Source: Muricea muricata
Taxonomy: Eukaryota > Cnidaria > Anthozoa > Malacalcyonacea > Plexauridae
Assembly (NCBI GenBank): GCA_963855995.1
Contig: OY979723.1
Location: 3,746,501 to 3,810,500, forward strand
DNA: 64,000 bases
Direction: 5' to 3'
Numbering within the stretch: position 1 is the first letter of the stretch; every line of letters begins with the position of its first letter. This document shows, piece after piece, positions 2,525-62,324 of this stretch. Below the pieces are notes generated by a model. That model made no database searches, was not told the DNA's origin, and saw only the letters and a list, made by a program, of their open reading frames with translations. The translations under genes were made by a program, and so were the position numbers.

Positions 2525-2617
2525 CACACATATGCAAGCTTAGATAAACAAGATCTTAATAAATGGGCGCACATGAGGAAATACTAACATTCCTTTATCG
2601 CAGAAAATACATTGAAA

Positions 2618-3493
2618 ATGGAGTTAAGTACAATTATGAACGTAGTACTTCTGCATCTTTTGAATATTTCTTTCATGGTTGCAGGAATATTTCTCAATTC
2701 TGTGGTCATAATCAGCATATGGAGATCGTCCCAACTTCGAAAGAAATCGTCCTACTTTCTGATCCTTGTCTTGTCGTGTTTCGATTTGGCAGCAGTCGTG
2801 GTCACCCACCCCCTCCTTACATTATTAACGATTTTGTGGTCAATGGACATTTATCCGGAAGAAATTAGATTTACATGGATATACACATCTGTTCTCTTCG
2901 GCGGCTTTTCATTATTTGCACTGTTGACGTTAAATATTGAACGATACTTGGGCGTAATGTTCCCAATTTTCCACCGCACTTCAGTTACAAAGAAAAGGCT
3001 CCTGTATTTTCTGGTATTTTTAAATACCTTACTAGTCGCTCTGTTGCCATTGCATTACTTTTACTGGGACACAGTTGGTGACATACTCACAGTTGTAGTT
3101 CTCTTACTTTTCTTCATCACCTTTGTTTATTTACACTGCAAAACACTTGGAATTGCCAGGTCAGAAAGTGAAGTAAAAAAACTTAACCAAAGTACTGAAG
3201 GAACGGCAAGTCACGAGCAAAGAAATAAAATACAGATAATTTTCAAAAATATATCTTCATGCTCTTTGGCACTTGGATGCTTTTCAATCTGCTCTTTTCC
3301 GGAAATCATAAATTCTATTTGTCATTTAACATCAAGCAATTCATGGAACGCAAAAGAAACGCTTCTATTTAATATATGGGCCAGCACACTTTTCGCCATG
3401 AACTCGACATTTAACTGTCTGATATTTTTCTGGAAAAATTTGATCCTTCGTCGTGAAGGAATGAAGATAGTAAAATGTTTTCTGAATAAATGA
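2618..3493 (+). CDS. Orphan rhodopsin-like GPCR, intronless (copy A)
   Basis: This is a 291-residue seven-helix membrane protein. I chose the ATG at 2618; an upstream TTG is not a credible eukaryotic start. Helices lie roughly at 6-34, 44-72, 85-108, 128-147, 155-178, 211-234 and 247-272. Class-A landmarks are Asn27 in TM1 (GIFLN), Asp56 in TM2 (LSCFDLA), an ERY motif at 108-110, CSFP in TM6 and NSTFN in TM7 in place of NPxxY. The tail before TM1 is only about five residues. Extracellular loop 2 is very short, and there is no Cys at the top of TM3 to form the usual disulfide. The ligand is unknown. The array setting suggests a lineage-expanded chemosensory or peptide-type receptor, which is inference. 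It shares the segmental duplication with the receptor at 10023. Confidence 0.88.
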   Translation: MELSTIMNVVLLHLLNISFMVAGIFLNSVVIISIWRSSQLRKKSSYFLILVLSCFDLAAVVVTHPLLTLLTILWSMDIYPEEIRFTWIYTSVLFGGFSLFALLTLNIERYLGVMFPIFHRTSVTKKRLLYFLVFLNTLLVALLPLHYFYWDTVGDILTVVVLLLFFITFVYLHCKTLGIARSESEVKKLNQSTEGTASHEQRNKIQIIFKNISSCSLALGCFSICSFPEIINSICHLTSSNSWNAKETLLFNIWASTLFAMNSTFNCLIFFWKNLILRREGMKIVKCFLNK

Positions 3494-9925: not shown

Positions 9926-10022
9926 CACACATATGCATGCATGGATGAACAATTAAGATGTTTATTAATGGGAGCACATGAGGAAATACTAACAGTCCTT
10001 TATCGCAGAAAATACATTGAAA

Positions 10023-10898
10023 ATGGAGTTAAGAACAATTATTAACGTAATACTCCTGCAACTTTTAAATATTTCCTTCATGGTTGCAGGAATATTTCTC
10101 AATTCTGTGGTCATAGTCAGCGTTTGGAGTTCGCCACCACTTCGAAAGAAATCGTCCTACTTTCTGATCCTTGTCTTGTCGTGTTTCGATTTGGCTGCAG
10201 TCGTGGTCACCCACCCCCTCCTTACATTACTAACGATTTTTTGGTCAATGGACATTTATCCGGAAGAAATTAGGTTTACATGGATATACACAACTGTTCT
10301 CTTGGGCGGCTTTTCATTATGTGCACTGTTGACGTTAACTATTGAACGATACTTGGGCGTAATGTTCCCAATTTTCCACCGCACTTCAGTTACAAAGAAA
10401 AGGCTCCTGTATCTTCTGGTATTTTTAAATACCATACTAGTCGCTCTGTTGCCACTGCATTACTTTTACTGGGACACAGTTGGTGATGTACTCACAGTTG
10501 TAGTTCTGTTACTTTTCTTCATCGTCTTCATTTATTTACACTGCAAAACGCTTGGAATTGCAAAATCAGAACGTGAAGTAAAAAAACTTAACCAAAGTAT
10601 TGAAGGAACGGCAAGTCACGAGCAAAGAAATAAAATAAAGATAGATTTCAAAAATATATCTTCATGCTCTTTGGCACTTGGATGCTTTTCAATCTGCTCT
10701 TTTCCGGAAATCATAACTTCTATTTGTGGTGTCACATCAAGCGATTCATGGAACGCAAAACAAACGGTCTTATTTAATATATGGTCGGGCACACTTTTCG
10801 CCATGAACTCGACATTTAACTGTTTGATATTTTTCTGGAAAAATTTGATCCTTCGTCGTGAAGGAATGAAGATAGTAAAATGTTTTCAGAATAAGTGA
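10023..10898 (+). CDS. Orphan rhodopsin-like GPCR, intronless (copy B)
   Basis: The product is a 291-residue paralog of the receptor at 2618, with about 33 amino-acid differences by eye. The ATG is the equivalent one. The same landmarks are kept: Asn27 in TM1, LSCFDLA in TM2, ERY at 108-110, CSFP in TM6 and NSTFN in TM7. There is no TM3-top cysteine and loop 2 is very short. Differences cluster in the first 45 residues, the TM3 entry, the third intracellular loop and the stretch before TM7. The TM4 core and the C-terminus are almost unchanged. The frame is fully open, so the gene is probably functional. Ligand and coupling are unknown. Confidence 0.88.
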   Translation: MELRTIINVILLQLLNISFMVAGIFLNSVVIVSVWSSPPLRKKSSYFLILVLSCFDLAAVVVTHPLLTLLTIFWSMDIYPEEIRFTWIYTTVLLGGFSLCALLTLTIERYLGVMFPIFHRTSVTKKRLLYLLVFLNTILVALLPLHYFYWDTVGDVLTVVVLLLFFIVFIYLHCKTLGIAKSEREVKKLNQSIEGTASHEQRNKIKIDFKNISSCSLALGCFSICSFPEIITSICGVTSSDSWNAKQTVLFNIWSGTLFAMNSTFNCLIFFWKNLILRREGMKIVKCFQNK

Positions 10899-19045: not shown

Positions 19046-32746
<13,701 letters not shown>

Positions 32747-36300: not shown

Positions 36301-39300
36301 TTGGCCCAAAACATTTATATTTTTTAGGAATGTGAAACTTTTGGTAAAATTTGTTTGAAACATAATTTTAAATAACGATAGCGAAGTAGTGTTTTATGTG
36401 GTATAAGTTGAAGTTGTTTACATTGCTATTAAAACCGACTAATAAGTCTATTTTTGTAAAATATAACTGCAGTTGTTGTCTAGATAATAAAACAGTTATT
36501 CCACTCACTCTCGTCGTATATGAGCGATAGCCGACAACTCGTCGGCTATCAGCTCATATATACGACTCGAGTTCGTACAATAACTGTTAATTTTTTAGGC
36601 CTCTGTTTGTGGTATCTGGTTCAGCTTTCGGCTGTGGCAGGTAACACAAACCTATGCCTTAATAATTCCTCATATCCTACTCGACCTCATTCAATGATTG
36701 TTTAATATCCGAATCAATCTATGCAATAAATGCCGATACACCGTCTGCAAAGATTTTTTTAGAAATATGTTTTTCCTTACAGGCAAGACGACCAAACGCC
36801 TTATAGCAAACGTCTTGTTATATCTGATAAACACACGCTGCATTTAAAATAGCTTGAAAAAGAACTCATCTAATAACCCAGAGAAATCCAACAACGCGAT
36901 GGAAGTTTGAGTACAGACAGTACTCTTGAGGAAAGCACATTTTCTTTAAAAAAACGTTGCTACATGTTACAGTAAAGCTTGTTGTTTGCTTTCAGTGTTG
37001 CTCACTTGTTTGTGTATAATACGACGTTAGATGCTCATAGTGAAGGATGAGAAAGACTAGATTATTTAAAGTGTTGAAAGAGATTTTATAAGACTTTGGG
37101 CGCAAGAATCACTGAATTTAAATCCATTTTGTAACCTCAAGGCGTCGCTGAACATCGGAAATTAATTTAAAATTTCCGCCACTTTGGCTAGCGGCCGAGC
37201 ATCCATTCTAGCAGTCGGGCAGCTATTATGTGATGTAAATTCGTGAAACAACAAAGTTTTCTTCTAGCATTTGTATTACTTCCTGTGCAGACGAATTGTT
37301 CACGACCTTCACAGCCCGCCAAAAGCCCTCCCTAAAGAAAACACTCGCGGAGGAGCTGGTTGTATTACAATTGTAATTAGGTACAATTTCCGGAATTTAC
37401 GTCACAGACATACTTTCAGCAGGTAAAGTTTCAGCGTCAGTCACAGTCAGAAAATTTATCAAGTCTGAAACGTTTTGCGTGAAAAATCATCAAAAATCAT
37501 GCACGGTCTTCCCGATTTCATTAAACAATTTTGGGGACGTGCGATTTAATCGTCTTGTTATGAAATTTCATAACCCTTGTACATTTTGTAACTCGTCGAG
37601 GTTTTCATATCCTTCAAAACGACAAAATCGCGGCGTAAATCGCACCAAAAATCGCTCTTGTAAACTGGCCTCAAGACAACACCGATTATAAACTTATATT
37701 CACTTAACACTGTTTTCCTCTACAAAATGTTTTCCTGCGAAGCGACTTCTCAGATTTTGAAGGTACCTACCTTATAATATCCAAGGTACATTGTGCCCAA
37801 CCTGAAAGTGTAAAGCCTGTTGGAATAAGGTGCAGCAATGGTTAATTTTGGCTGATCACGCCTGACTCCATCGAGGTAGAATAATAACTCAGCCGACGGT
37901 TGTAAAACTATTGCAATCACGTGCCAGTTGCCGTCATTGACAGGATGTGAGAGAGGAAAACTGAAATTGTATCTGGAATAGAAATAAAAGCTTCAAGCAT
38001 TGATCCAAAACTAAACAGCGCAGAGTGCGGTCGATATTCGGGTACCTAAAAGATCGAAACAGAAAATACGTTACGGTATAATTATGATACAATTTAAATA
38101 CAGCTATTTTAATCTCCATTGATACCGTCTTAATTAAAGTCTTAGTACTAACTGGAGAATGCCAAGTGCTCTGCAAATATCTACTGGCGGTCGAAATAAT
38201 ATTTGTCCACCGTTTGGAATTTAAGTATGTAAATTTCGTCAGTCACGGAATAGATACGATAAAGCGAACTCACCTTTGAGGTTTTTGCCCTCACGCATTG
38301 CTCGATGCTGGAAGAAAACCTCCCTAGCGAAAACTAGTAAAAAACCAACCTCGTACCCAGGCTCTCTTCTTTATGCTCTCGCTCGAGGACGAGACCCTGG
38401 TGAATGCTGGTCTCGTGGCTCCCAGATTTTGGGAGCCATTAATATGTCCAATGCTAGGGAGGGGAGGGTTCGCATGTTAGTATTTGCGCAAATGTAAATC
38501 GTGTCACACGTTTCGTGAGTACTGTATTAAACACCTGGCTCTGAGCGAGAGTATAGACTGCATTTTATGAAATGTTATACTAGCAACGCGTTTCAAAACT
38601 AAAGGTAACCTGTTTTCGAAATACCTGCAATGGCTTCTTCGGCCACATCGCGGACGCCAAGAAAATTTCGGACCACTACAACAAGATGTAGTTCTTGCAG
38701 ACTTTGTGGTTCCGTGATCGATAAAAAACACGCCAAAAATCTCTTTAAAGGCAGCAACCGTGCGCTCCTTAATCTGGCTCGCAAGTTACCATCGGAGAAT
38801 ATTGCACCACACGAAAATCTTCCTAAGTTGTTATGTCGCCCATGCGAAAGAAGGCTTGGAAACTTTAAGGAATTCAGATCGAAAATACAAGAATGTCAAA
38901 AAAAATTCGAGCGTTTCAGCAAAAGATGCGTAGAAGTTTCCCATTCTTTACTGCCTCCCGCTAAAGCTATACGAGGAGTGATTCTGAGACAAGGACAGTA
39001 CGTACTAAGTTAAACTTTACACCAAGCGAAGAGGTAGGTTTCACTTTGTGTCATGTATTTAATTCTTATTTCATATCCATCTATGTATATCTATATATGT
39101 ATATATACTTAGAAATTTAATAAGTTCTTAAAAATTCAATTGGCATAGTTTTTGTTTTTATAGGATAAGCCATACTCATTGACGTTTTTTTATTCTCGAT
39201 GCTATCATTACCTAAAATGTTGCTAATCTGCACGGAAGTATTGTTTATGTAATACTTATTCTTGTCAGGTTCTTGTCCGTCAGCTTTTCATATATATGTG

Positions 39301-42300
39301 TTAGGGTTTTAGCGCATCGACACTCAACACTGTTTATGGCCATAAATGCTTATGTAGGTTTATAATGCAAAGTTAAGGTTCATATAATTACTGAACAGAT
39401 TTTGTTGCATCCTTTTGTTACAAGTATAAATGTGCCTAAAAAATTCACACTTGCTCAAAATGAACGAAAAATGCACATTCAAAGCCATGTGGACTTTACT
39501 CTTTTAAAATTACCTATATCCCTACTAACCAAAACAGACAGGAACCGTATATGCATCGCAAAGTTTTCTTACACCCGAAAAAGAAAGTATTTTAGAATCG
39601 TATGTAGAAAATATTATATTTATGATAATAGTTATTTCGCCAATTGCATGTTAGTGTATTTTTTACCGGTTAAGGAGATCAGGTAGTGGAACTCCTTACC
39701 TTATCAAGCGAAAAACTATCTTAGATTCAAAACGCAAAATGGTTGGAATCAGACCTCGCGAATTTTGTAAACTTGCTGAATCATTTGTTTTGTCTTGTTT
39801 TTGTTTTGCGCGACATTTAAAACTGGTTGGTTACATGATCTTATTAGCCAAGTAATTGAAATGCATGTCGTTTTATTTTAGGCCATTTCGACTGATAATA
39901 CGTCTACCGCAGATTTATGTACTCAAATAAACAAAGAGTTAAATGAAATCACAAGAAGAGATAAAAATTTTGTGTTGCGATGTAGAGGATACAATGGATT
40001 AGCAGCAACTTGTATCGACGAAATTAACAATGAAATAAAAACCGCTTGTCCACTTGCCTACCAGCTTCTGTCTGCCATGATAGACAGGCAGCTTTGGTCT
40101 TGATTTATGCCATTAAAATGTTCAGAAGATGCCATGAAATGAGCAGACTTCAAAGGATGAACACAGTTTTACTTGTTGAAGGAGGAGCTACTCAGCAGGT
40201 AATATGTTAATTATTAATTAAATGTATCAAAGCTTTTGATTTGACCGCTACGACAACAAAACAGACAAACAAGTAATTTTGTGGGAGAGATGGGTCGTTG
40301 AGGGTGAAGTACTCTGGTAGTAAAAAAATAATTCCATAGCATTGTTAGTGTTATCATAGACTCATAAAATATGCAAGCTTGTATAACCTAGCGGGATGTA
40401 TATATGCCCGCTAGGCGACTGGATGCCTTGGGGTTACAATCCCCATCAGGTAATGTTAGAGGCTTTACAATCCCCCATAACATGATCGACAAATAAATGC
40501 TCGACAAATATTGAAACAATTTCGTGCTCCCTATTGTATCTCTCTCAAGTTTAGAGCAAATTGATACCTAATAAATGCGCCTCATCCGTTTATATCCTAC
40601 GGAAGCTATTTCTATTGGTTGATCAATGTTAACAAAGACGATATTGTCTGTCTATTAGTTGTTGGATTACATTTGACATGATCCGCACATGTTTGCATCG
40701 TGCACAGCGCGTGATCGCCGATGCATTAGGTTAATGACTGACAATTGCGCACGACGTGAAATTCCGCGCACTTGGACAATCTCCAAAAAATGTAAGAACT
40801 TTGAACAATGTTAACAGCATTTCTCCATTAGCTCTAATTTACAATCCGGAAATTATAAATTGGCTAAAAAAACTTATACATGAACTTTCTGCAAGTCGAA
40901 TTATAAGAATCAAATAAAATGAAAGTGCAAGCTTGCCTTATGCTTGCTTCTCGCTTAAAAAATGCAGCAATGGAAAACCTTTACAACAATTCTCAGGTTA
41001 AATGCGAACAATTAATGTGAATTGCGAACTAGGATCCGTCCTTTAATTAAACCGATAAACTCGAGCTAAACCACGCAGCCAAAAAACGTGCAGCGCGTAA
41101 TTCGTGCATGTGTTTGTTGTAATACTCCCTAATCATTCATATAATGCATGATGGTATCAAATGTGCCAGAAAAACAGTTGCTTAGTCTAGTTTAAGCAAA
41201 AACAAACAAATTAACAAAAGTCACTTGAACTTAATACTAAGTGTGTTCAACAAAAAGAAGTCTATTTTGGATCGAGGAGTAGCATAACAGAATCTGTGCA
41301 ATCTTTAGGGATTTGAATATTATGAGAAGGTAAATTGTACACCAGCAATATGTCTTTCCAATATCTCTGTTATAGTAGTAGAGAACTGCTTTAGATGGCA
41401 GCCCATCCCGCCCTGCTCTTCCTGTTTCTTGGAAGTATTGCTGAGTAGATGCAGGTGGTCTAACTTGAATAATCTCTCGAATACATGGAATGTCAGCCCC
41501 CATGCCGATAGCCACAGTTGCAAAAATAACTCGAATTGTTGAAGAAATACATTTTAATTGGTTTAGAATCATTTCCTTCATTTCTGAGGTTTGTGGTGCA
41601 TGATACTGTGCAAACATACGATGCTCAGGAATGGGGTCTAAACCAGGTGGGTGATATTGCGCTTTGCCCAGTAAACCTTCAAACAGCTTATATGCAAACC
41701 CACACCATCTTAGTGGTAAGTATATAATAGGTAAAGGATGTTCCACTTTTAAGTCCATCAACCTTTCAGCAATTGGCCTGAGTATATTTTAATAAGATGT
41801 CAACTCATCATTTTCTCGTAGGATCTTGCTGTAAAAAATGTTACTTCTGTTTGGACTAGCAATAACCTCAACAGGGTTTTTCATGATAAGAGAATGTTTA
41901 ATTTTAACCCTGTCAATGCCATTTGCAGTTGCAGTAAGGGTAATCATCATAGCATTTGGAAAAAAGGCACCCAGCATTCCTAGTTGAGAATAGTCCGTCC
42001 TGAATTCATTGCCCCTAGAAATGTAGAAAGCGAAAATTAACATACACCTCAATTTGTGGTATTATGTTAATATTACTGTAATAATTACATAGTCATTTAT
42101 GTAAACAATAATACGCTTTAGAAAGTGATCACAAAATGTATGACTGTCAAAATTTATTTTTAAAAGCTTCGACTGCGCTAATGGAGTTGACACAGATGTA
42201 GACGGGTGTTGCAATACATACCATTCCAATGTACAGTGAGCTTCATCCACAACCACAGCAGCGACGGAACATTTATATGCGTTGCTCTGAAACAGCGCCA

Positions 42301-45300
42301 CTCCTTGTTTTGTAGACAAGCAAGATTCTGGATGTGTTAATACATATTCGTAATCTGCATTCTTTAAGCGTAACTCATCGACATTAGCCAAATCAAGGTT
42401 TAATAGTTCGTTATCATAATTCCTTTTTACACTCAAAACAGCCGCTCTAGTACGAACAGCGTTTATCCTTTGTAACTGATCTTGTATAAGAGAGTTTAAT
42501 GGAAAAATTACGAGAATGACGGGATCGTTTTCTCGAATGCCTGACCTCCTTTTTTTCTCCACTAGCAATGCAGGAAGCAGATGAAAAATAATCGATTTTC
42601 CGTAGCCAGTTGGCAGAACAGCTAACAAATCTCTTCCAAGATACGCTGCTTCTAAACATACAACTTGTTTCGGCTTCAGTACAATGGACACATACTCACT
42701 GTTAACTACGGCAAAGTGTAAACAAAGCAAGAACTGAAGACATTTAAAATTTGAAGACTCGTACATCTTGAAGGCATAAAGTATATGAAAATAGATAAAA
42801 ATATATAGCTACAAAATAAATCACCCTTGTGTCAGTGTATTATTTTGTGACAATGGCCCAAACTGGGCTCAAATTGAGTCTATTAACAAGTACTACCCTA
42901 CCACCCCTCTCAGGAGACATATTAGTGGCTCCCAAAATCTGGGAGCCACGTGACCAGCATTCACCAGGGTCTCTTTCTCGAGCGAGAGCGTAGAGAAGAG
43001 AGTCTGAGTGCGAGGTTGGTAAAAAACCCGAAAAAACTCGTTTTCTCCGAAGGCTTTATTTCAAGGCTGCGGACATGCCAAAAGTCATGCACACGACTTT
43101 GCACCCCCGAGCGAGACCTCTATATCGTATGTACTCTGTGGCCGTTCAAATAGTCTTTTAACATCCAGACACATGAAATGACAAATCACTGCAAAATGTC
43201 TCACCAATTCAAAATGCTGCGACATTACCATATCCATTTATTCGTGAAATTTTGGCACATTTTTCAACAATCAAGCGTAATGTGAGTCGTTAATTCCACC
43301 CATCCTGTCGACTGCCCATGCGCTTATACTCCAAGAAATGTATAATGCAGGAAACGCAAAAATATTCTACTTACACATGATCTTTCCACAACTCAACAAA
43401 AAAAGTGTTTCTGTCACGCCATACGGTAAGCCTCTCAGTGGGTGAATTCTTTGGAATATGGTGTACAAAGTAAGACTTATTCTGTTCGGTGGTTTTAAAC
43501 CAGAAACGTAGAGTGAATCTACTGAGTGGTCTGCCGGTAACCGCAGCATATGGATAATAATCCCCAGTTCCATTGAGATGGAATTCATATACTCTCTTAA
43601 CTACATGAAAGAGAAATATTATTTTCGTATACCATGAATAGTTAAAGAAATGGATAGGGCAATAGCTGGCGTCAATGTTAAAACCTAGTTGCGATTCGTG
43701 ATGAAACGAGTGATGGCAAATGTTGTGACGGTTTTCCACATTTTATTTATTTCGCTATATTTTCAGATTCCAAACAGTAATATCAAAGTAGAACAGAATA
43801 TCTATTATTCTCATTGGTACAGTATACAAACTTGCCTATGCCGCGACAAAGTGCATGTTTGCGGTAAACGTCTCACGTCTCTGTTTCTAAATTTTTGCTC
43901 AAGTTCCTACGAAAATTGCGTCCCAAAAACTATGGTTGACTGAAGTTAAATTTGGGATGCATTTTTAAATGTTTAGTCGTCGGAATATTTGGTAAAAATT
44001 ACAGGGAATATTTAGATATTTAATGATAGAATGGCGTAGTGAAACGTATTTGTTTTTAAAAACAAGAAAAAGATGAGACTGTAATATTTCGGTTTTATTT
44101 CAAAACCATCATCAGACAGAATGAAGTTACATGGGTTAGCTAAGATCTATATATACACAGTTAAAGTATTCAAGTTACATGAGAATGAAATCCTTTTCAC
44201 TACCTACAAAGCTTCTGAAAATGCTTTCGCTGTCTGAAAGCATTCTTTTCCGTTGATGAAGTATCTTCATGCAAAGTAAGCAAGATAACGCTCCTACAAC
44301 AGCTGGTTTACGGCAGTTCTTATGACGTAGTTTGTATTTGCGAGACTTGGTTGAACAATACCATTCTAAACGGTGAACTTCTACAAGGCTACAATATTAT
44401 ATTCCGTAAAGATCGAACAGGCAAAACTGGAGGTGGCGTCCTTGTCGCTATCAAATCAGAACTTGAAGCATTGCATCGTCCAGATCTCGAAAAACCCGAT
44501 TGCGAACTCGTTGTTGTGCAAATATAGAATCTGAACAGCAAACCAGGAATTTTATACACTTTTATCGTCCACCTAACTTGACGCATAATTCTTTGAATGA
44601 ACTAAACGACTCTCTTCAAAGCAACGTAGAAAAAGACTATGTCGTAGTTGTAGGCGATTTGAATCTTCCAGAGTTAAGATCGTCCGAAGATGATGTCAGA
44701 GCTTTATCCGATGAACAATTTCCAAGTGATCGCTATCCTATTGAGTTCTTCATCAAACAAACTTTCAAACGAGCTTATCGCGTTCGTAGTCGTGTTTATG
44801 ATTTCCGAAGAGGGCAGTTTAAACAACTCCAAACCTTTCTTCAGAGATCTGCGATTGAAGTAACGTTTTCAGGAAACATCGATGAGTGTTGGGTTCAATG
44901 GAAAACTCAATTTCAAGAAGCTGTTGATCAGTTCATCCCCTCTAAAACAATAGTGGATAAGGACTATCTACCATGGATTGATAGAGAAGTCCAACACTTA
45001 ATTCGCAAAAAATATACGGCTTAAAGAAATATCGCTTAAATAAATGTGAAACGCGGAAACAAAACTTACGTGCTACCAGTCAAAAAGTGAAGAATTTGAT
45101 CAAGAAAAAGCATCGTGAGTATCTGAAAAATATTGAAACATCATTCTATGCAAATCCCAAAGTATTCTGGAGCTATCACAAAGCCATGACGCACAAACGA
45201 AGAGATTTAAATCCTTCTATAACGTACAAAGGAGTGACTGGCAAAACACTGCGTGAAAAAGCAGAGATCTTTAATTCATATTTCTCATCTATCTTACAAA

Positions 45301-48300
45301 AATCAGGAGTTAACTCGGACAATGGTGATACTGATAGTGCGGCTCGGTTCCCAAGCGACTCAAAATTATCCGAAATCAATGTAAGTGCGGAAGAAGTCAT
45401 ATGCTATTTGCGTAATTTGGATGTCAATAAATCGCATGGACCAGACGAAATCCACCCTCGTTTATTGAAAGTATGCTGTGAACAAATTGGACCAAGCCTG
45501 TGCGCTCTTTTTAACCGTTCCCTAAACTGTGGTCGAGTGCCTACAGAATGGAAGTCTGCCAACATGTACATAACACATGTCCACAGAAAAGAGTCTAAGG
45601 AACTTGCGGAGAACTATCGTCCAATCTCACTGTTGTCCATCGTAAGCAAGACACTCGAGCGCTGTGTAAGCAATAATCTCTACCACCATGTTTCCGGCCA
45701 TATTTCAGATGAACAGCACGATTTCGTTAGAAATCGATCGTGTGTCATGCAGCTCTTATCCGTCTTCCATGCAATCGGATAGAATTTAGATAAAAGCATC
45801 CAAACAGATATCCTGTATTTGGACTTCGCTAAAGCTTTTGACTCGGTAGACCACTGCACTCTACTTGTAAAGTTAAAGTCTTATGGAGTGACAGGCAAAT
45901 TGCTAAATTGGTTTGCTGACTATCTTCATGGTCGCCTCCAAAGAGTCGTTGTAGATGGTGTCGCTTCTTAATGGACGTCTGTTACGTCTGGTGTTCCGCA
46001 GGAAAGTATACTTAGTCTTTTACTGTTTGCACTTTTCATAAATGACTTTCCTGATGCTGTCAAGGACAGGTCGCAGACAGCTCTCTATGCTGATGATTCA
46101 AAAATTTATGAAAGTATTTCGAGTATACAATGTTGTGAAACTTTACAACAATCTCTAGATAGTCTTAACACTTGGAGCTATATTAATAATATGTCATTTA
46201 ATGCATCGAAATGTAAAGTTCTGACAGTGACGAGAAAACTAAATCCAGTTAATTTTGATTACCATCTTGAAGATAACACATTAGCTCCTGTAAGAAAAGA
46301 GAAAGATCTCGGAGTAGTGATAACAAGCAACTTCACTTGGGACCAGCAAATTCTGACTGTTGTCAGTAAAGCCAACAAAATGCTCGGCCTTCTACGTAGA
46401 ACTTGTCCTCTGATTAAAGACACCAGAGTAAGACGCTCATTCTATCTCTCGCTGGTGAAGTGTCACTTAAATTACGCGACTGAAGTCTGGTCTCCGTCAA
46501 ATATTTCTCTCAAACTCAAAGTCGAAAACGTCCAAAGAAGAGCAACAAGATGGACAAGAGCAACAAGGATCGACTAGTTGCATTAGATCTTTTACCACTT
46601 TGCCATGATAGAGAGTTAAAAGACTTAACATTCTTTTATAAGGCATTGCATGGACACATTAGCATAGACATTTCCAACTTTGTCTCCTTTGTCAATAATG
46701 GACGGACCAGGTCAAGTAATTTGAGAACACTGAAAGCACCATATTATCGTACCAGCACCTTTCAGTCATCTTATTTTAACTGTATAGTGAAACTTTGGAA
46801 CAAGTCCATTCTCGTTACTCCTCAGAGAAACTTCTCTAGTTTACTGCTCTTTAAAAGGTCAATTAAGGACTTGTTTAAATTGGAGCTGAACAGATCTTTT
46901 GACTTGTCAATGCCTTGCACATGGACTTTCGTGCCTGACTGTGCTTGCCACAGGCAATCAAGTAGTCGTTAAATGTGAAGTCTCAACAGAGGCGAGTGAT
47001 GATATTCCGCGATGATATTGTTCCTACTTGCTTACAAGCTGAGTTATATCATTCTACTATTCATCATTCGCTTCTGTTAGATTGTTCTGCTCTTGTTGTG
47101 TTGTGTTGTGTTGTGTTGTGTTGTGTTGTGTTGTGTTGTGTTGTGTTGTGTTGTGTTGTGTTGTGTTGTGTTGTGTTGTGTTGTGTTGTGTTGTGTTGTG
47201 TTGTGTTGTGTTGAGTTGTGTTGTGTTGTGTTGTGTTGTGTTGTGTTGTGTTGTTTTGTGTTGTGTCGTGTCGTGTCGTGTCGTGTCGTGTTGTGTTGTG
47301 TATTGTTTGTTCTATTGTGATACTGTACAATGTGTACATAGTTTCTATATTACTGTGAGGGAGATGCCTTGCATGGGACGTAGTTACTGTCCCGTTCGCA
47401 TATTTCACCTTTGGGCCATTGTTTGCATGCACTCGTACTCCAATAAAGGTTCCAATAAAGTTGTTAAATTAAAACCCCTTAGAACCAACAAGGGCGGTTA
47501 ATGCCAAGGCGAAGTCAACAGAAAAGCGCAAGATGTTTACCGGCTTTGAGTCCAGAGTTAAGCTCAGGCTTAAGAAATTTGATACGTATGCTCTCTTATT
47601 TTAAAAGATTGGTTTGAGGGATTTTTTTCAATCTTTCAAAAGTTTGAAGAATTGTTCATCTAATAGACTATTTTTTAATCTAATATTTTGAATAAAGACT
47701 GAGGGATACTCTTTCAGTGCTCCAATCGATTGAAATATGTCACTTATACACACACACATTAGATTAGTTAACAAATAAAAAATCCATTAGATTGAGTTTT
47801 CTATCGTTTGAATTAAAAGACTTGCTTCAAGAAGTAGAATTTGGTTATTTCATAGAGCTGTTGTGGTGGAGAATCTTACAGTTACTATCGATTAGAGTTT
47901 TTATGCAAGACGTTGTGTTTGTATGAAAATGCGTGTTTGTCAGGCGGTCATAAAGATTATTAAAGTTGGATATGAATTGTGCGTTTTCATATTCAAGAAA
48001 GTTTTCAGCTACGGCGTTGTTTTGATGGTATTTAGCATGTCCTGAAAGGCGGTCATCTAAGCATCTGAACTTTTGTCCTATGTACGAATTATTACAATCG
48101 GGACAAGTAATTTAGTATAAAACGTTACTTTTTGAATTCAAAAGGCACTTTATCTTTGTTGGGCGTAAAAATCGAGATTTTCTTTGTGTTGTAGAGTACG
48201 GCGAATCTAACTAGGCTTTTTAGCGAACGTTGAATTTTCAAAGTGTACGATTTAATAAAGAATTTTGTCTAGGTAGAGGAGTCGAATCCATATTTTAGGT

Positions 48301-53326: not shown

Positions 53327-54570
53327 ATATGCAAGTCTTTTGCTCGATAGCTCATTTGGCAGTCTATAAACCCGAAGATGCGATTTTTTGTTGTTCTCTG
53401 CATTGCCAAGCTTTTCATATCTCTGAGGTTGGTTCTGAAATAGTAGGTGATCGCCAATTGGCGTGTTATTACTCCGCGCCATTTATTACTCTTTTGTTGT
53501 GGGTGTAATCGCAGAAGGTGTGTGGGAGAAATGGCTGAACAGGGATTTCTAATAGAGGTTCGGGTAAATTTGAAAAAACCCCGGTCTACAGGAGTAGCTT
53601 TGAAGAAGAAAAAACAACCATTGATGCCTTGTGTTCTTATACTAGAATATAAGAGGCCGATAGTAGTGAAAAATTTGGGAAGTAGGATGGTTGCTAACAG
53701 GTCTTCTTGACGGTGAGTTACAAAGATGATTTCCGCTATGCAAAAATCTGCCGTGAACGCAAACTCACCGCTTTTATAAAGAACAGAGTGCTAGATGTTT
53801 ACCACCTTCGACGCTTTAAGAATGGACACGAGTTAATACTCATAGCGGAAATTAGATCGTGATTCTTTTCAAGTTTAAACATTTCTTTCGTTTCCTCGTT
53901 ACGTTAATTGCTTCATTCGTTAGTCGCTTCAAACTATTATAACCTGATGTTTTCCGCGAAATCAGAAACCGGTGCATTAATTAATGATCGTTTGTTGAAA
54001 TTTCAGTTGAATAGAACTCGGTTAGGGTTCAACTTGGTCGATTGGCCGATGCAATGAAATGTATACTTTTGTCTTTTGCATTGAATGAACTTCCGACTCA
54101 TTAACGTGATCATTAACATTGTTTGTTTTTTGATAACTCGAGTAATTGCTTTTCAATGATTTGAAACATAGATTCAAGTAATACAGAATATTTCTATGGG
54201 TTGCCGTGCTCAGTCGCGTTATTGAGCACGCGGGAAGTTGGCAGAGCAAGAAAAAGGCGTAAGAGTTGGTCAAGGCTAAAGCTGAAACAAATTCTAGCGT
54301 TTGAGTATAGACAATTTACAACTTACAATTTACATACAGTAACGGAGAAATATTTGCACCCTTTTTAGCCGTGCTCGATCGTGTTAGAGAGCACGCATTT
54401 AAACCAATGAAAAAGCCTATTTTATGACATGTATATTTTAATTGGTTTTAATAATTTATTCACACGTATTAACAATCTATAATAATATATGTTGCGACTA
54501 TAGTTTATAGTTTTTATACAGCGAACAGGACACGTTATGAATGTCCTGAAATAAATCAATATAGAAAAGA
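53327..54570. other. Intergenic region before the GPCR cluster
   Basis: Two short hairpins, 54205-54232 ('ccgtgctca...gagcacgcgg' type) and about 54369-54396, look alike and could be remnants of one element. Open frames at 53447-53710 and 54022-54273 lack support. Confidence 0.4.
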
Positions 54571-54587
54571 GGGGGGGGGGGGGGGGG
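54571..54587. repeat. Poly-G tract
   Basis: Seventeen G bases within the upstream block shared by the GPCR loci. The corresponding place upstream of 57003 reads 'gggaggggatggg', so the pure run is a local expansion. Confidence 0.9.
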
Positions 54588-54643
54588 TCATTGCATGTCT
54601 GCCATGCATTGCACTTAAATTACTTTTACAATATACATTTGGA

Positions 54644-54649
54644 CAGGTG
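54644..54649 (+). promoter_or_regulatory. E-box-like CAGGTG upstream of GPCR
   Basis: ACAGGTGCA lies 52 bases before the ATG at 54696. The wider block at about 54517-54570 resembles 56860-56915 and 63300-63355, so the upstream regions are related by duplication. Confidence 0.35.
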
Positions 54650-54695
54650 CATTAAACAACTGTACGATCGAATACGACGATATAAGTTAAACAAA

Positions 54696-55583
54696 ATGGA
54701 CATTAATTCTCTCATCAACGTGATATTTCTGTGTCTTTTGAATACTTTGTTTATGATTGGAGGAATAGTTCTGAACCTTGTTGTTATTATCAGTCTATGG
54801 AGATCAACGCAACTTCGAAGGAAACTGTGCTACTTCACGATATTTGTTTTGTCCTGTTTTGATCTGGCTGTCGTCGCCATCGCTCATCCTATTCTTTTAT
54901 TATCAACAACATTGTGGTCGATGGCAATTTATCACGAACAAATTAGGATCACACGGATACAAACAGTTTCTGTATTGGGAGGTTTTTCAATGTTTGCGCT
55001 GTTAACGTTGAATGCAGAACGATTTTTGGCCCTACAATACCCATTTTTTCATCAAAGCTCGGTTACCAAAAGAAAACTTACATATTTTCTTGCACTATTG
55101 ATCACCAACGAAATCGCTGTAATGCAATTGTACTACTTTCTTGAAGTGAAAAAGAATATTAATATGCTCATAGCTGTGTTTCTAACATTCGTTTTCTTCA
55201 TCTTTATTTATATTAACTACAAAGTGTTTACCATCGCCAAGTCAAAACGCGAAGACGAAAGGGTTGCTTCATTTGAAACATCGGAAAGGCCGAAATATAA
55301 AATACATTTTAAAAGCATATCTGGATGTTCTTTGGCAGTCGGCTGCTTTTTCATCTGCTGTTCTCCACAGCTTATATATTCAATATGGCGTTTACTGTCA
55401 AACACTTCACGTACTGAAAGACAAGCCTTATTATTCAGTCTATGGTGCAACACAGTCATCTGTATGAACTCGACCTTCAACTGTGTGATATTTTTCTGGA
55501 GAAACTCAATCCTGCGATGTGAGGGAATGAAGACATTAAAGTACTTTATTTCAGCCAAAAAACGTCAAGTTTCTTATTCTTAA
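54696..55583 (+). CDS. Orphan rhodopsin-like GPCR, intronless
   Basis: The frame opens further upstream, but I take the ATG at 54696 because the product then starts MDINSLINVIF, aligned with the other family members. It has 295 residues. TM1 has GIVLN, TM2 LSCFDLA, TM3 ends in ERF in place of ERY, TM6 has CCSPQ and TM7 NSTFN. No cysteine is at the TM3 top and loop 2 is about ten residues. The C-terminus is basic (SAKKRQVSYS). Intracellular loop 3 is short and charged. It belongs to the same array family as 2618 but to a distinct subgroup with 57003 and 61422. The ligand is unknown. Confidence 0.88.
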   Translation: MDINSLINVIFLCLLNTLFMIGGIVLNLVVIISLWRSTQLRRKLCYFTIFVLSCFDLAVVAIAHPILLLSTTLWSMAIYHEQIRITRIQTVSVLGGFSMFALLTLNAERFLALQYPFFHQSSVTKRKLTYFLALLITNEIAVMQLYYFLEVKKNINMLIAVFLTFVFFIFIYINYKVFTIAKSKREDERVASFETSERPKYKIHFKSISGCSLAVGCFFICCSPQLIYSIWRLLSNTSRTERQALLFSLWCNTVICMNSTFNCVIFFWRNSILRCEGMKTLKYFISAKKRQVSYS

Positions 55584-57002: not shown

Positions 57003-57929
57003 ATGGACACAAGTTCCATTATCAACGTGATATTTCTGTGTGTTTTGAATTCTTTGTTTATGGTTGTAGGAATGGTTCTAAACGTTGTGGTTATTGTCAG
57101 TCTATGGAAATCATCACAACTTCAAAAGAAACTGTGCTACTTTACGATTTTTGTTTTGTCCTGCTTTGATCTTGCTGTCGTGACGATCACTCACCCTATA
57201 CTTACATTATCAACAATTGAGTGGTCGATGGGAATTTATCATTAACAAATTAGAATTACACGCATACATATTCTCATTCTGTCGGGAGGATTTTCGATAT
57301 TTGCACTCTTAACTTTGAATATTGAAAGGATTTCTCGCCCTAAACTTCCCGTTTTTCCACCAAAGTGCGGTTACCAAGGAAAACTTATAATTTTTCTCGT
57401 ATTGTTGATTACTATTGAAATTGCTCTGTCACCACTGTATTACTATATTAAGGGCAAAACGTCGGCAAATATGCTCATAACTATTTTTTTTATACTCATT
57501 TGGTTAATCTTTATTTACATAAACTACAAAATATTCGTCGTCGCCAAGTCAAAGCGCAAAGACGAAAGGGCTGCTTCATCTGAAATATCAGCGTTTAGCC
57601 ACCTGGAAAGGAAGAAACGCAAGATGAATTTTAAAAATATTTCGACATGTTTATTAGCAGTTGGCTGCCTTTTTGTCTGCTCGACTCCACAGCTTATCTA
57701 CTGCATGAGGGGTTTGACGTCAAACACATCACGAAATGAGAAACATGCAATATTATTTAATATTTGGTCCAGCACGTTCGTCTGCATGAACTCAACCTTA
57801 AACTGTGTGATATTCTTCTGGAGAAACTCAATCCTGCGACGTGAAGGAATGGGCTGGAACTATTACAACGCTTTATTTCTACCGAAATACCAAAATATCA
57901 GCTTTCTTATTCCTAAGTTATACAAGTGA
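57003..57929 (+). pseudogene. Orphan GPCR, broken copy
   Basis: The ATG at 57003 opens a family N-terminus with TM1 (GMVLN) and TM2 (LSCFDLA). A TAA at 57244-57246 stands where the relatives have a sense codon just before TM3. Downstream the frame continues into TM3 (FALLTLNIER), then a shifted stretch at about 57330-57400 replaces the ERF and loop-2 sequence before frame is regained at TM4. The C-terminus beyond RREGM also differs. These breaks make a working receptor unlikely. Confidence 0.85.
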
Positions 57930-59850: not shown

Positions 59851-61421
59851 ATTCCGGTGAAGTAAACAACAAACTAAAGGGCGCTTGTAGACTGAAGAAA
59901 AAAAGCTGTAAAAGTTAGTGTGACGAGGCCAGTAAAAGTTGGTTTACGATAAACTGAGGAAGAAAATTTACCGTCAGAGCAAGTTATTTCGATGATTCAA
60001 GTAAAAAGAAAATGTTAGTTGTCAAGCTTTAATTTCTTTAACAATGCTTAAACTATAGGTTTTCCCGTTTCAGAACAGTTAAGTATCTCTTCTTTAACAA
60101 GAAAACCTTCATCTAGCCCAGTTATGTCAAGCCTACTCTCCCATTTAAAAACCAGCAGTCACACTGCTAACTCTTATGACTTTGAAATCCTTCCCTCTTG
60201 TTCAGACAATTGCGAATAATTGATTCACGAAAGCCTTCTGATATTAAAGTTTAAGCCCGGTCTTAATTTCCGCGCATTACTGTTTTTGTTGACCTTGTCA
60301 TTCTTCCGTCCTTGTCTGTCTATCCTGCAATGTACCTTACTGAATGTTTCTATCCTATATCTACACCGCGTAACCTTTGTATCATAACACCTTGTAAATA
60401 ATTTGGCATATATTTTCAATAATTAAGTTCACGACTTCAATAATTAAGTTGATTTAGTAGTCGTGGCAGTCCTTCCAAATATGCTAGTTCTTGCTCAGAC
60501 ATAGTAATGAGCGCATTTTGCCAAAAAGAACTCTGCTTGGTTTCGTGTGGATCTTTGCCGTTTAACCATTGACAATAGAAAACGTGCGCCTTATCCATGA
60601 ATTCGGTGCAATTTTGTCATCTCATATGTCGGTTGTCTACAGTTTGGTATAGCAGCTGTTATTCGATAATTTTAAGTCTTGTAATTAAACTAGCAACAAA
60701 TGCAACCATTTTTGGGGCATTAAAAATGCGACTGAAAAAGACGTAATGTAACATTTTACCGCTCTGAACATGGTGACATAGCTTGACAAAGTGACATAAG
60801 GTGAATGATTTTTGCGAATATTAAAAAGACTAAACATATACACTAAAAATTATCTCTTGCTGCCCTGCTAATAACTAAATATTACATGTTTGTAGTAGCT
60901 GTATGGACAATCATAATAATGTAAATTGTCATAAAAAATCCCGATCCGGGATTATTAATATTTTTCAAATAAAATTAAATTAAAATTCTCTGGGAATAGG
61001 TTTGTCCAATAAATGTGCAGCTGTGTTTGCAATAAAACCAGTCTCGTTCAGCGTCACCCCACAAACATGTCGAGCTATGCAAACATTTTCAATCTATATC
61101 ATCTATGTCTCCGTATCGATTGAATTTTGAGAAATACGCCAAAGCGTTGTCCAATTCAAGAAGAACACGAGAAACAATACGTGCAATCCATGACGTTTTC
61201 GAAGAAGTACCATGGTTTGGTACAATTAAACTACACAATTTCCGGTGTATATTCGCTTTGTTATTGATGGGTGGCAGTTCTACTTAAACGTACAAAAAAT
61301 CATATGATTGTATACATGCGTCAGGAGGTGCACTTGTCTGTATAAACGATTACGCATTCGAATGTCACATTTTTGGGAGTAACTTCAATTATAGTATCTA
61401 AACTTTAAAATACGCCTGAAA
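59851..61421. other. Intergenic region before the GPCR at 61422
   Basis: No gene is supported. The 60-codon frame at 61105-61287 has no features. AGGTGCA at about 61326 is the counterpart of the upstream word of the other receptors. Confidence 0.4.
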
Positions 61422-62324
61422 ATGGAATTAAGTTCCATGTTTAATACGGTATTTCTGTGTGTTTTAAACGCTTTGTTAATGGTTGTAGGAATCTTTCTAA
61501 ACGTTGTGGTTATTGTCAGTATGTGGACATCGATACATCTTAAAAAGAAACTATGCTACTTCACAATACTTGTACTGTCTTGCTTTGATTTAGCAGTCGT
61601 CTTCATCACTCATCCTATCCTGATATCATCAACAATTTTGTGGTCAATGGAAAAGTATGAGGCAGAATTTGAGTTCATGCGGAAACAAACGTCGATTCTT
61701 TTGGGAGGATTTTCGATGTTTGCGCTGTTAACGTTAAATATTGAACGATTCCTGGCACTCACCTGTCCATTTTCCCATCAAAGCTTGGTAACAAAAAGAA
61801 AACTTACAATTTTTCTCTCTATCTTAATTACTATTGAAGTAGCTCTGTTGCCGTTGTACTATTATTTTAAAATGAACAAAATTTTTAATATCTTCATAGC
61901 TGTGTTTCTTACGATCGCTTTGTTGATATTTATTTACATGAACTATAAAATGCTTGTAATTGCCAAGTTAAAACGTAAAGACAAAAGACTTGCTGCTTCT
62001 AAAATATTACCAACATATCATCAAGGAAAGAAGAAACTCAAGATAAATTTGAAAAATATTTCCACATGTTCTTTAGCAGTTGGCTGCTTTTTTAGCTGCT
62101 CCGTTCCACAACTTATATATTCTATATGGCGTTCAACGTCATGGGCTTCGCTAAATGACAGAAATGCTACATTATTCAGTATATGGTCCAACACATTCGT
62201 CTGTATAAACTCAACATTAAACTGTGTGATTTTTTTCTGGAGAAACTCAATACTTCGTCGTGAAGGAATCAAGGTACTAAAAAGGTTTAGGTCCACATGG
62301 TATAATGAAGCGTCGAAGAACTAG
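61422..62324 (+). CDS. Orphan rhodopsin-like GPCR, intronless
   Basis: It has 300 residues, starting MELSSMFNTVFLCVLNALL. TM1 has GIFLN, TM2 LSCFDLA, TM3 ends ERF, TM6 has CSVPQ and TM7 NSTLN followed by CVIFFWRNSILRREG. There is no TM3-top cysteine, loop 2 is very short, and the third intracellular loop is strongly basic (KLKRKDKRLAAS). The frame is intact. It is closest in sequence style to 54696 and 57003. The ligand is unknown. Confidence 0.88.
   Translation: MELSSMFNTVFLCVLNALLMVVGIFLNVVVIVSMWTSIHLKKKLCYFTILVLSCFDLAVVFITHPILISSTILWSMEKYEAEFEFMRKQTSILLGGFSMFALLTLNIERFLALTCPFSHQSLVTKRKLTIFLSILITIEVALLPLYYYFKMNKIFNIFIAVFLTIALLIFIYMNYKMLVIAKLKRKDKRLAASKILPTYHQGKKKLKINLKNISTCSLAVGCFFSCSVPQLIYSIWRSTSWASLNDRNATLFSIWSNTFVCINSTLNCVIFFWRNSILRREGIKVLKRFRSTWYNEASKN

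Follow-up and report, generated by a model that had tools for sequence, protein, structure and literature searches.

The 64,000-nucleotide window of Muricea muricata DNA analysed here raises the question of what kind of mobile element would carry a RecQ-like helicase gene and a gene with paired cysteine motifs between one pair of terminal inverted repeats (TIRs). The original prediction placed a TIR transposon at 38312-43066; the element is real, but that interval overshoots it by about 35-50 bp at either side, its ends lying at 38346 and 43018 in window coordinates (4673 bp). Inverted repeats of 126 nt with 87% complementarity occupy 38344-38469 and 42895-43020, and their local alignment scores 167 in comparison to 16-21 in 20 shuffles. 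After placement of the ends the TIRs are approximately 124 bp long by repeat alignment; the left (38346-38469, + strand) starts with CAACCTCGTACCCAGG and the right (42895-43018, - strand) terminates in CGAGGTTG. Comparison of the flanks reveals a perfect 9-bp target-site duplication, GTAAAAAAC, directly outside both ends (38337-38345 and 43019-43027); together with the repeats and their score, this bears out the claim of a TIR transposon. The left TIR also includes a palindrome, GTGGCTCCCAGATTTTGGGAGCCA (38415-38438, + strand), in which a 9-bp hairpin is possible, and a counterpart is found within the right TIR at 42925-42948.

The two genes are in convergent orientation, as had been proposed, each beginning near its own end: on the plus strand, 284 bp separate the left end from the ATG at 38630, and on the minus strand, 252 bp separate the right end from the ATG at 42766. 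The minus-strand gene (41355-42766) has an interrupted frame, read as at least two exons, and was assigned to the RecQ-family SF2 helicases by profile matches and matches to solved relatives. Its frames match Pfam DEAD (8e-15) and Helicase_C (5e-11), as well as the RecQ-family model TIGR00614 (2e-17 and 9e-20); the latter scores fall under the model's curated whole-protein cut-off, which is expected because the window frames are fragments. The nearest solved relatives are BLM for the N-terminal part and bacterial RecQ for the C-terminal part, and the predicted RecQ type is thereby confirmed. The helicase core is shared with BLM, RECQ1 and bacterial RecQ; unlike these, the window helicase is truncated and transposon-encoded. 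A tblastn search of phages with the N-terminal part returned 12 records, the five matches listed being weak at about 27-31% identity. Between the two long copies of the element (the second is described below), the C-terminal part of the helicase shows 3 changes that are synonymous and 10 that are not, for a ratio of 1.0, and the N-terminal part, read from stop to stop and so perhaps taking in some non-coding sequence, gives a dS of 0.07 and a dN of 0.039; in both parts the changes are too few for a claim of selection.

The plus-strand gene is a probable transposase gene. Exon 1 (38630-39010, + strand) encodes a zf-AD zinc-binding domain (Pfam, E=2e-9) and has 112 matches within its own genome, while exon 2 (39882-40199, + strand; boundaries by eye) has a broken frame in the window copy. 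An unrelated high-copy repeat is nested at 40208-40881 and, by direct comparison, is not found in the second long copy.

This second copy, located on C1, has the same ends as the window copy and a perfect 9-bp duplication of its own, GCAATATGC, and its pieces follow one another as they do in the window copy. It is degraded, and later insertions have extended it to 64.1 kb. The idea that C1 carries a giant cargo element of 64 kb was rejected, as the surplus in this colinear copy consists of a simple-repeat expansion, a Helitron-like block (recognized by eye) and other insertions. Its plus-strand gene includes the Pfam domain DUF6589 (3e-22), also present in relatives elsewhere (9e-36 and 1e-18), in a remainder of the gene that the window copy does not have. 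About 5.8 kb of the C1 copy is missing from the window copy at an inferred internal-deletion junction (41339-41354), and by this comparison the missing sequence comprises transposase exons 3 to the end and the helicase C-terminus, which is cut off there.

The window copy is best read, from sequence comparison, as an internal-deletion derivative. In principle, the 5.8-kb block of the C1 copy could be a second element inserted there, with the window copy a complete short element and the DUF6589 block acquired on C1 by insertion of a related element; other insertions do occur in the C1 copy, as the Helitron-like block and long simple repeats attest. This is very unlikely, given that relatives keep a single order of zf-AD exons, DUF6589 and convergent helicase, and that similarity in the window helicase is lost (by eye) at the junction, leaving it without the cysteine-rich C-terminal part of its relatives, in which RecQ_Zn_bind is matched with a score under the Pfam cut-off. 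With the window copy read as a deletion derivative, the enclosure of exactly two genes, a feature stressed in the original prediction, becomes a consequence of the internal deletion when set against the C1 copy and relatives. The Cys-motif gene is real insofar as it encodes zf-AD, but it is not a standalone gene; by comparison with the C1 copy and relatives, it corresponds to just the initial exons of a larger gene encoding DUF6589. That the copy is defective was correctly anticipated, as seen in its broken frames and missing internal block, and so was the value of fuller relatives, since it is through these and the C1 copy that DUF6589 and its linkage are seen.

The host genome is home to dozens of fuller relatives of the window copy. 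A convergent helicase, downstream and on the opposite strand, is present at 79 of the 117 DUF6589 loci found, as compared to a mean of 0.345 and a maximum of 3 convergent pairs in 200 coordinate-shift controls, and this is the repeated gene linkage that had been looked for in support of the element. A same-strand helicase is found at only 1 of the 117, and an upstream opposite-strand helicase at 7, one of which also has the convergent helicase. With zf-AD upstream as well, 54 triples of zf-AD, DUF6589 and convergent helicase are obtained. No convergent helicase lies within 8 kb of the remaining 38 DUF6589 loci; of 148 helicase loci, 69 fall outside any such convergent DUF6589-helicase pair. 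The genome searches scored 123 of 441 DUF6589 candidates and 150 of 425 helicase candidates, and the DUF6589 list is a lower bound; fragments or other RecQ genes may be among the matches, and the unpaired loci may partly reflect missing data. The TIR is tied to the genes through the zf-AD exon, with a TIR start 268-399 bp upstream in 20 of 25 loci, including both long copies, as against none of the 25 in any of 20 shuffles. The nuclease of AcademX transposons is of the XPG type, and of 26 XPG_I places the nearest to any listed DUF6589 match (the list being a lower bound) is 12.96 kb away, which leaves none inside 10 kb.

The main home of the TIR is a population of MITEs of about 310 bp, which make up 31 of the 33 TIR pairs examined. 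An exact 9-bp duplication flanks 13 of the 33 pairs (both long copies and 11 of the 31 MITE pairs), in agreement with the short target duplications expected of such an element. Identity over 10 bp is seen in none of the 33, and a single exact match has a length of 6; at least two of the nine flanking bases are mismatched in 15 pairs, and 4 of the 33 are not aligned to an end. When flanks were cross-paired as a control, 1 of 1056 combinations matched, and that pair is a duplicated locus (L045/L084). A 7-bp duplication with ends CC..GG was rejected as it suits the two long copies only, the flanking G/C being variable across the 33 pairs. The abundance of MITEs would accord with the helicase and zf-AD segments being independent insertions that became chance neighbours between two MITEs, an explanation left with next to no likelihood by the recurrence on C1 of these segments in unchanged order and by 79 convergent DUF6589-helicase pairs where 0.35 are expected. 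The original prediction had named a TIR occurring mainly in short MITEs, with the genes unlinked elsewhere, as the pattern that would tell against it; the TIR does occur mainly in MITEs, but the genes are linked.

The multi-exon protein with zf-AD and DUF6589 is most likely the transposase. By hand count, 88 of 126 DUF6589 matches are free of stops. Candidate acidic motifs DNxD and GDQLTR, picked by eye from a BLAST alignment, are common to exon 3 and the relative L099, with the first acid altered in the degraded C1 copy; in a further candidate motif, DLxQE (by eye), D534 and E538 are invariant across 9 rows. DUF6589 frames from the C1 copy and relatives matched no transposase model in Pfam, one such frame matched none in NCBIfam, and a DUF6589 profile search of PDB sequences gave chance-level capsid matches only.

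In assigning a class, the closest published description is that of AcademH, the helicase-encoding lineage of Academ DNA transposons, credited to Kojima 2020 in passages of PMC10045372 and PMC10799480. Its target duplications are given as 9 or 10 bp, and the lack of an XPG-type nuclease is implied there by contrast to AcademX, the nuclease-encoding lineage with 3-4 bp duplications (passages of PMC10045372). The family in the window shares with AcademH the TIRs with 9-bp duplications, an SF2 helicase and the lack of XPG_I near listed DUF6589 matches; the features used are those of the published description. Should the assignment to AcademH be correct, AcademX would be a member of one superfamily with this element, but it differs in its 3-4 bp duplications and nuclease, in place of which 9-bp duplications, a helicase and no XPG_I within 10 kb of listed DUF6589 matches are found here. 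A Kolobok transposon with a RecQ helicase was also weighed, as KolobokH encodes such a helicase, a red-alga Kolobok has one on the complementary strand (passages of PMC9587614), and a THAP domain is close to the right part of the relative L098. It is most improbable, and was ruled out by the target duplications, which are 9 bp here and TTAA (4 bp) in Kolobok; KolobokH is moreover reported only from fungi in the same passages of PMC9587614, and the THAP frame sits past the helicase motifs in the single relative that was read and is taken as a nested element.

The combination of a helicase with 9-bp duplications matches AcademH and not KolobokH. The element at 38346-43018 is quite probably an AcademH-like DNA transposon, present as a non-autonomous copy with an internal deletion, AcademH being compared by its published description. 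Academ-type elements had been named as the nearest relatives, which is likely on these two features; the accompanying suggestion that the RecQ type and absence of XPG might set the family apart overlooked that the literature already describes an Academ lineage with a helicase. It is unlikely, though less so than the Kolobok reading, that zf-AD and DUF6589 with a convergent RecQ form a superfamily of their own that came to resemble AcademH in helicase and 9-bp duplications, DUF6589 then being an unrecognised transposase family unrelated to Academ transposases. The unmatched transposase models would fit this, as would the absence of the word DUF6589 from a literature library of 5.39 million papers, where a single paper, listed as dealing with fly and mosquito genes, combines three or more of the terms zf-AD, zinc finger-associated domain, transposase and RecQ. 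Against it, both the helicase content and the duplication length fit the AcademH description (PMC10045372), and no XPG_I is close to listed DUF6589 matches.

A full AcademH-like element would have TIRs starting with CAACCTCG and two convergent genes, one for zf-AD and DUF6589 and the other for a RecQ-family helicase. The observed basis is the ends, the 9-bp duplication, the gene order and orientation, the repeated gene linkage and the MITEs with the same ends. DUF6589 is proposed to act as a DDE-type transposase that would cut at the TIR ends and insert with a 9-bp stagger, while the N-terminal zf-AD exon may aid end binding or dimerisation. The RecQ helicase could unwind or remodel the ends, the target or repair intermediates, and the MITEs and the window copy may be moved in trans by intact relatives, or may formerly have been.

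Even if the element is AcademH, Pfam DUF6589 (PF20231), a family of unknown function, gains context from the RecQ helicase that lies convergently beside it at 79 of 117 loci, and the sampled left ends of DUF6589 elements bear the TIR at 20 of 25 zf-AD loci. The role of a RecQ helicase in cut-and-paste transposition is now approachable, because a single genome holds numerous MITE substrates alongside relatives whose open frames are long.

The helicase-carrying element of the window extends over 38346-43018, its left end starting with CAACCTCGTACCCAGG and its right end closing with CGAGGTTG, and the 9 bp GTAAAAAAC are duplicated immediately outside both ends. The paired inverted repeats of the original prediction are real, as they measure 126 nt at 87% complementarity and their local alignment score of 167 lies far above chance (16-21 in 20 shuffles). 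Within each terminal inverted repeat (TIR), a 24-nt palindrome (z -6.4 and -6.6) folds to a 9-bp hairpin. The start of the '+' gene, which has a zf-AD domain at its head (E 2e-9), is 284 bp inward of the left end; that of the '-' gene, indeed a RecQ-family helicase, is 252 bp inward of the right end. Nested at 40208-40881 is a high-copy repeat, many copies of which were returned by the whole-element search, with more than 30 genome places elsewhere at 93-96% identity among the matches scored. Adjoining the element, 37753-37992 (-) gives a weak Laminin_G_3 match, below cut-off, and the element may lie within an intron of a host gene.

Elsewhere in the window, similar open frames are clustered at 2588-3493, 9993-10898, 54555-55583, 57246-57929 and 61395-62324; of these, 2588-3490 and 61395-62321 were tested, and both are seven-transmembrane receptors of rhodopsin type. 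Further retroelement-like frames occur at 44467-46972, where the reverse transcriptase model RVT_1 matches weakly and below cut-off, and at 20961-22694, which has no Pfam match and appears Penelope-like by eye.

Searching the genome, presumably an animal's and perhaps a cnidarian's (453 Mb in 74 contigs), with the whole element gave at least one further long copy, with 40 of 527 candidates scored, at 55.036-55.100 Mb of contig C1 (55035942-55100042, stretches L009-L015). The ends of this copy are those of the window copy and lie within a perfect 9-bp duplication (GCAATATGC), and its pieces come in the same order. Its length of 64.1 kb is inflated by simple repeats, other insertions and open frames that are labelled Helitron-like from a reading of the frames rather than a library match. 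The simple-repeat expansions are long and have TACC- and ATCT-type units; it is unusual for a single transposon to be bloated to 64 kb and yet keep its target duplication intact.

In the C1 copy, the zf-AD exons and the helicase flank a stretch of about 5.8 kb that is missing from the window copy and includes a 325-aa frame matching Pfam DUF6589 (3e-22). The window copy is read as an internal-deletion derivative with its junction at about 41339-41354. Among 23 zf-AD loci apart from the two long copies, the frames of five relatives were read, and in all five the same exon 2 comes after exon 1. A fuller relative at C1 57.54-57.55 Mb (loci L067 and L098) presents, in order, a TIR start, a zf-AD frame, exon 2, a 291-aa exon-3 frame and a 338-aa DUF6589 frame, with convergent helicase frames whose C-terminus is cysteine-rich and a THAP frame past the helicase motifs; a right TIR was not recognised in the sequence examined there. 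In L058/L097, the relative that matches best, the TIR is present together with both first exons, and different frames stand at the expected DUF6589 position. The DUF6589 frames at L099:268-2226 (653 aa) and L100:1115-3034 (640 aa) are near-identical, intronless across the domain and likewise convergent with a helicase.

Linkage of the genes at many loci, the support asked for by the original prediction, is borne out across the genome. Searches gave at least 112 zf-AD matches (150 of 156 candidates scored), at least 126 DUF6589 matches (123 of 441) and at least 150 matches to the helicase C-part (150 of 425), and merging pieces less than 800 bp apart left 110, 117 and 148 loci, respectively. 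A convergent helicase (downstream, opposite strand, within 8 kb) is present at 79 of the 117 listed DUF6589 loci, involving 79 distinct helicase loci at a median gap of 1.4 kb, against 0.345 convergent pairs on average, and never more than 3, when helicase coordinates were shifted 200 times. A same-strand upstream zf-AD occurs at 69 of the 117 and all three genes at 54, while a same-strand downstream helicase occurs at only one. By hand count, 88 of the 126 listed DUF6589 matches are stop-free. At 20 of 25 loci, counting the two long copies, a TIR start precedes the zf-AD exon by 268-399 bp, whereas every one of 20 shuffles gave none. Because they have a common left flank, two of these 20 loci are not independent. 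Of the 117 listed DUF6589 loci, 38 are without a convergent helicase, and seven have an upstream opposite-strand helicase within 11 kb, one of these being convergent too. The other six (DUF6589 at C25:117932, C3:18588173, C1:41105741, C1:35522543, C1:88801625 and C54:34125) display a second, divergent arrangement, and their helicases occupy open frames that are long, at about 570-604 aa.

The TIR alone gave at least 65 genome matches (40 of 233 candidates scored). In 31 of the 36 regions examined, which together contain every listed match outside the two long copies, a facing TIR pair lies 260-416 bp apart, as a short MITE, the alignment stopping short of an end in four of the 31; the pair is absent in five. 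Counting the two long copies, 33 TIR pairs could be compared for the short target duplications anticipated at the ends: 9-bp flanks are identical in 13, differ by one mismatch in five and by two or more in 15, and none of the 33 is identical over 10 bp. Cross-pairing left and right flanks gave one identity in 1056, from the duplicated locus L045/L084.

According to PMC10045372, duplications are 9 or 10 bp in AcademH and 3 or 4 bp in AcademX, a difference that seems tied to the encoded helicase or nuclease. Kolobok duplications are TTAA, and KolobokH, which bears a RecQ helicase, is described as found only in fungi (PMC9587614); sources of Helicase_C and DEAD domains include AcademH, KolobokH and Helitron (PMC10799480). 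The present element resembles AcademH in duplication length, in its helicase and in having no nearby XPG site, as all 26 XPG_I places are more than 10 kb away from any listed DUF6589 match. The decisive feature for membership would be homology to an Academ transposase, and the element, placed here by the published description, is called AcademH-like. The 26 XPG_I places exceed what is expected from the usual few host nucleases, and this genome may additionally contain Academ elements that carry a nuclease.

The ends, 9-bp duplications, gene order, linkage and short derivatives are observed features of the family, and around them a mechanism can be proposed. DUF6589 would act as the DDE transposase, a putative role assigned because it lies between such ends, is linked and has conserved acidic motifs (DNxD, GDQLTR and DLxQE); a DUF6589 sequence-profile search of the PDB found no transposase. 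The zf-AD domain would bind the ends or dimerise, and the helicase would aid end opening, target capture or repair.
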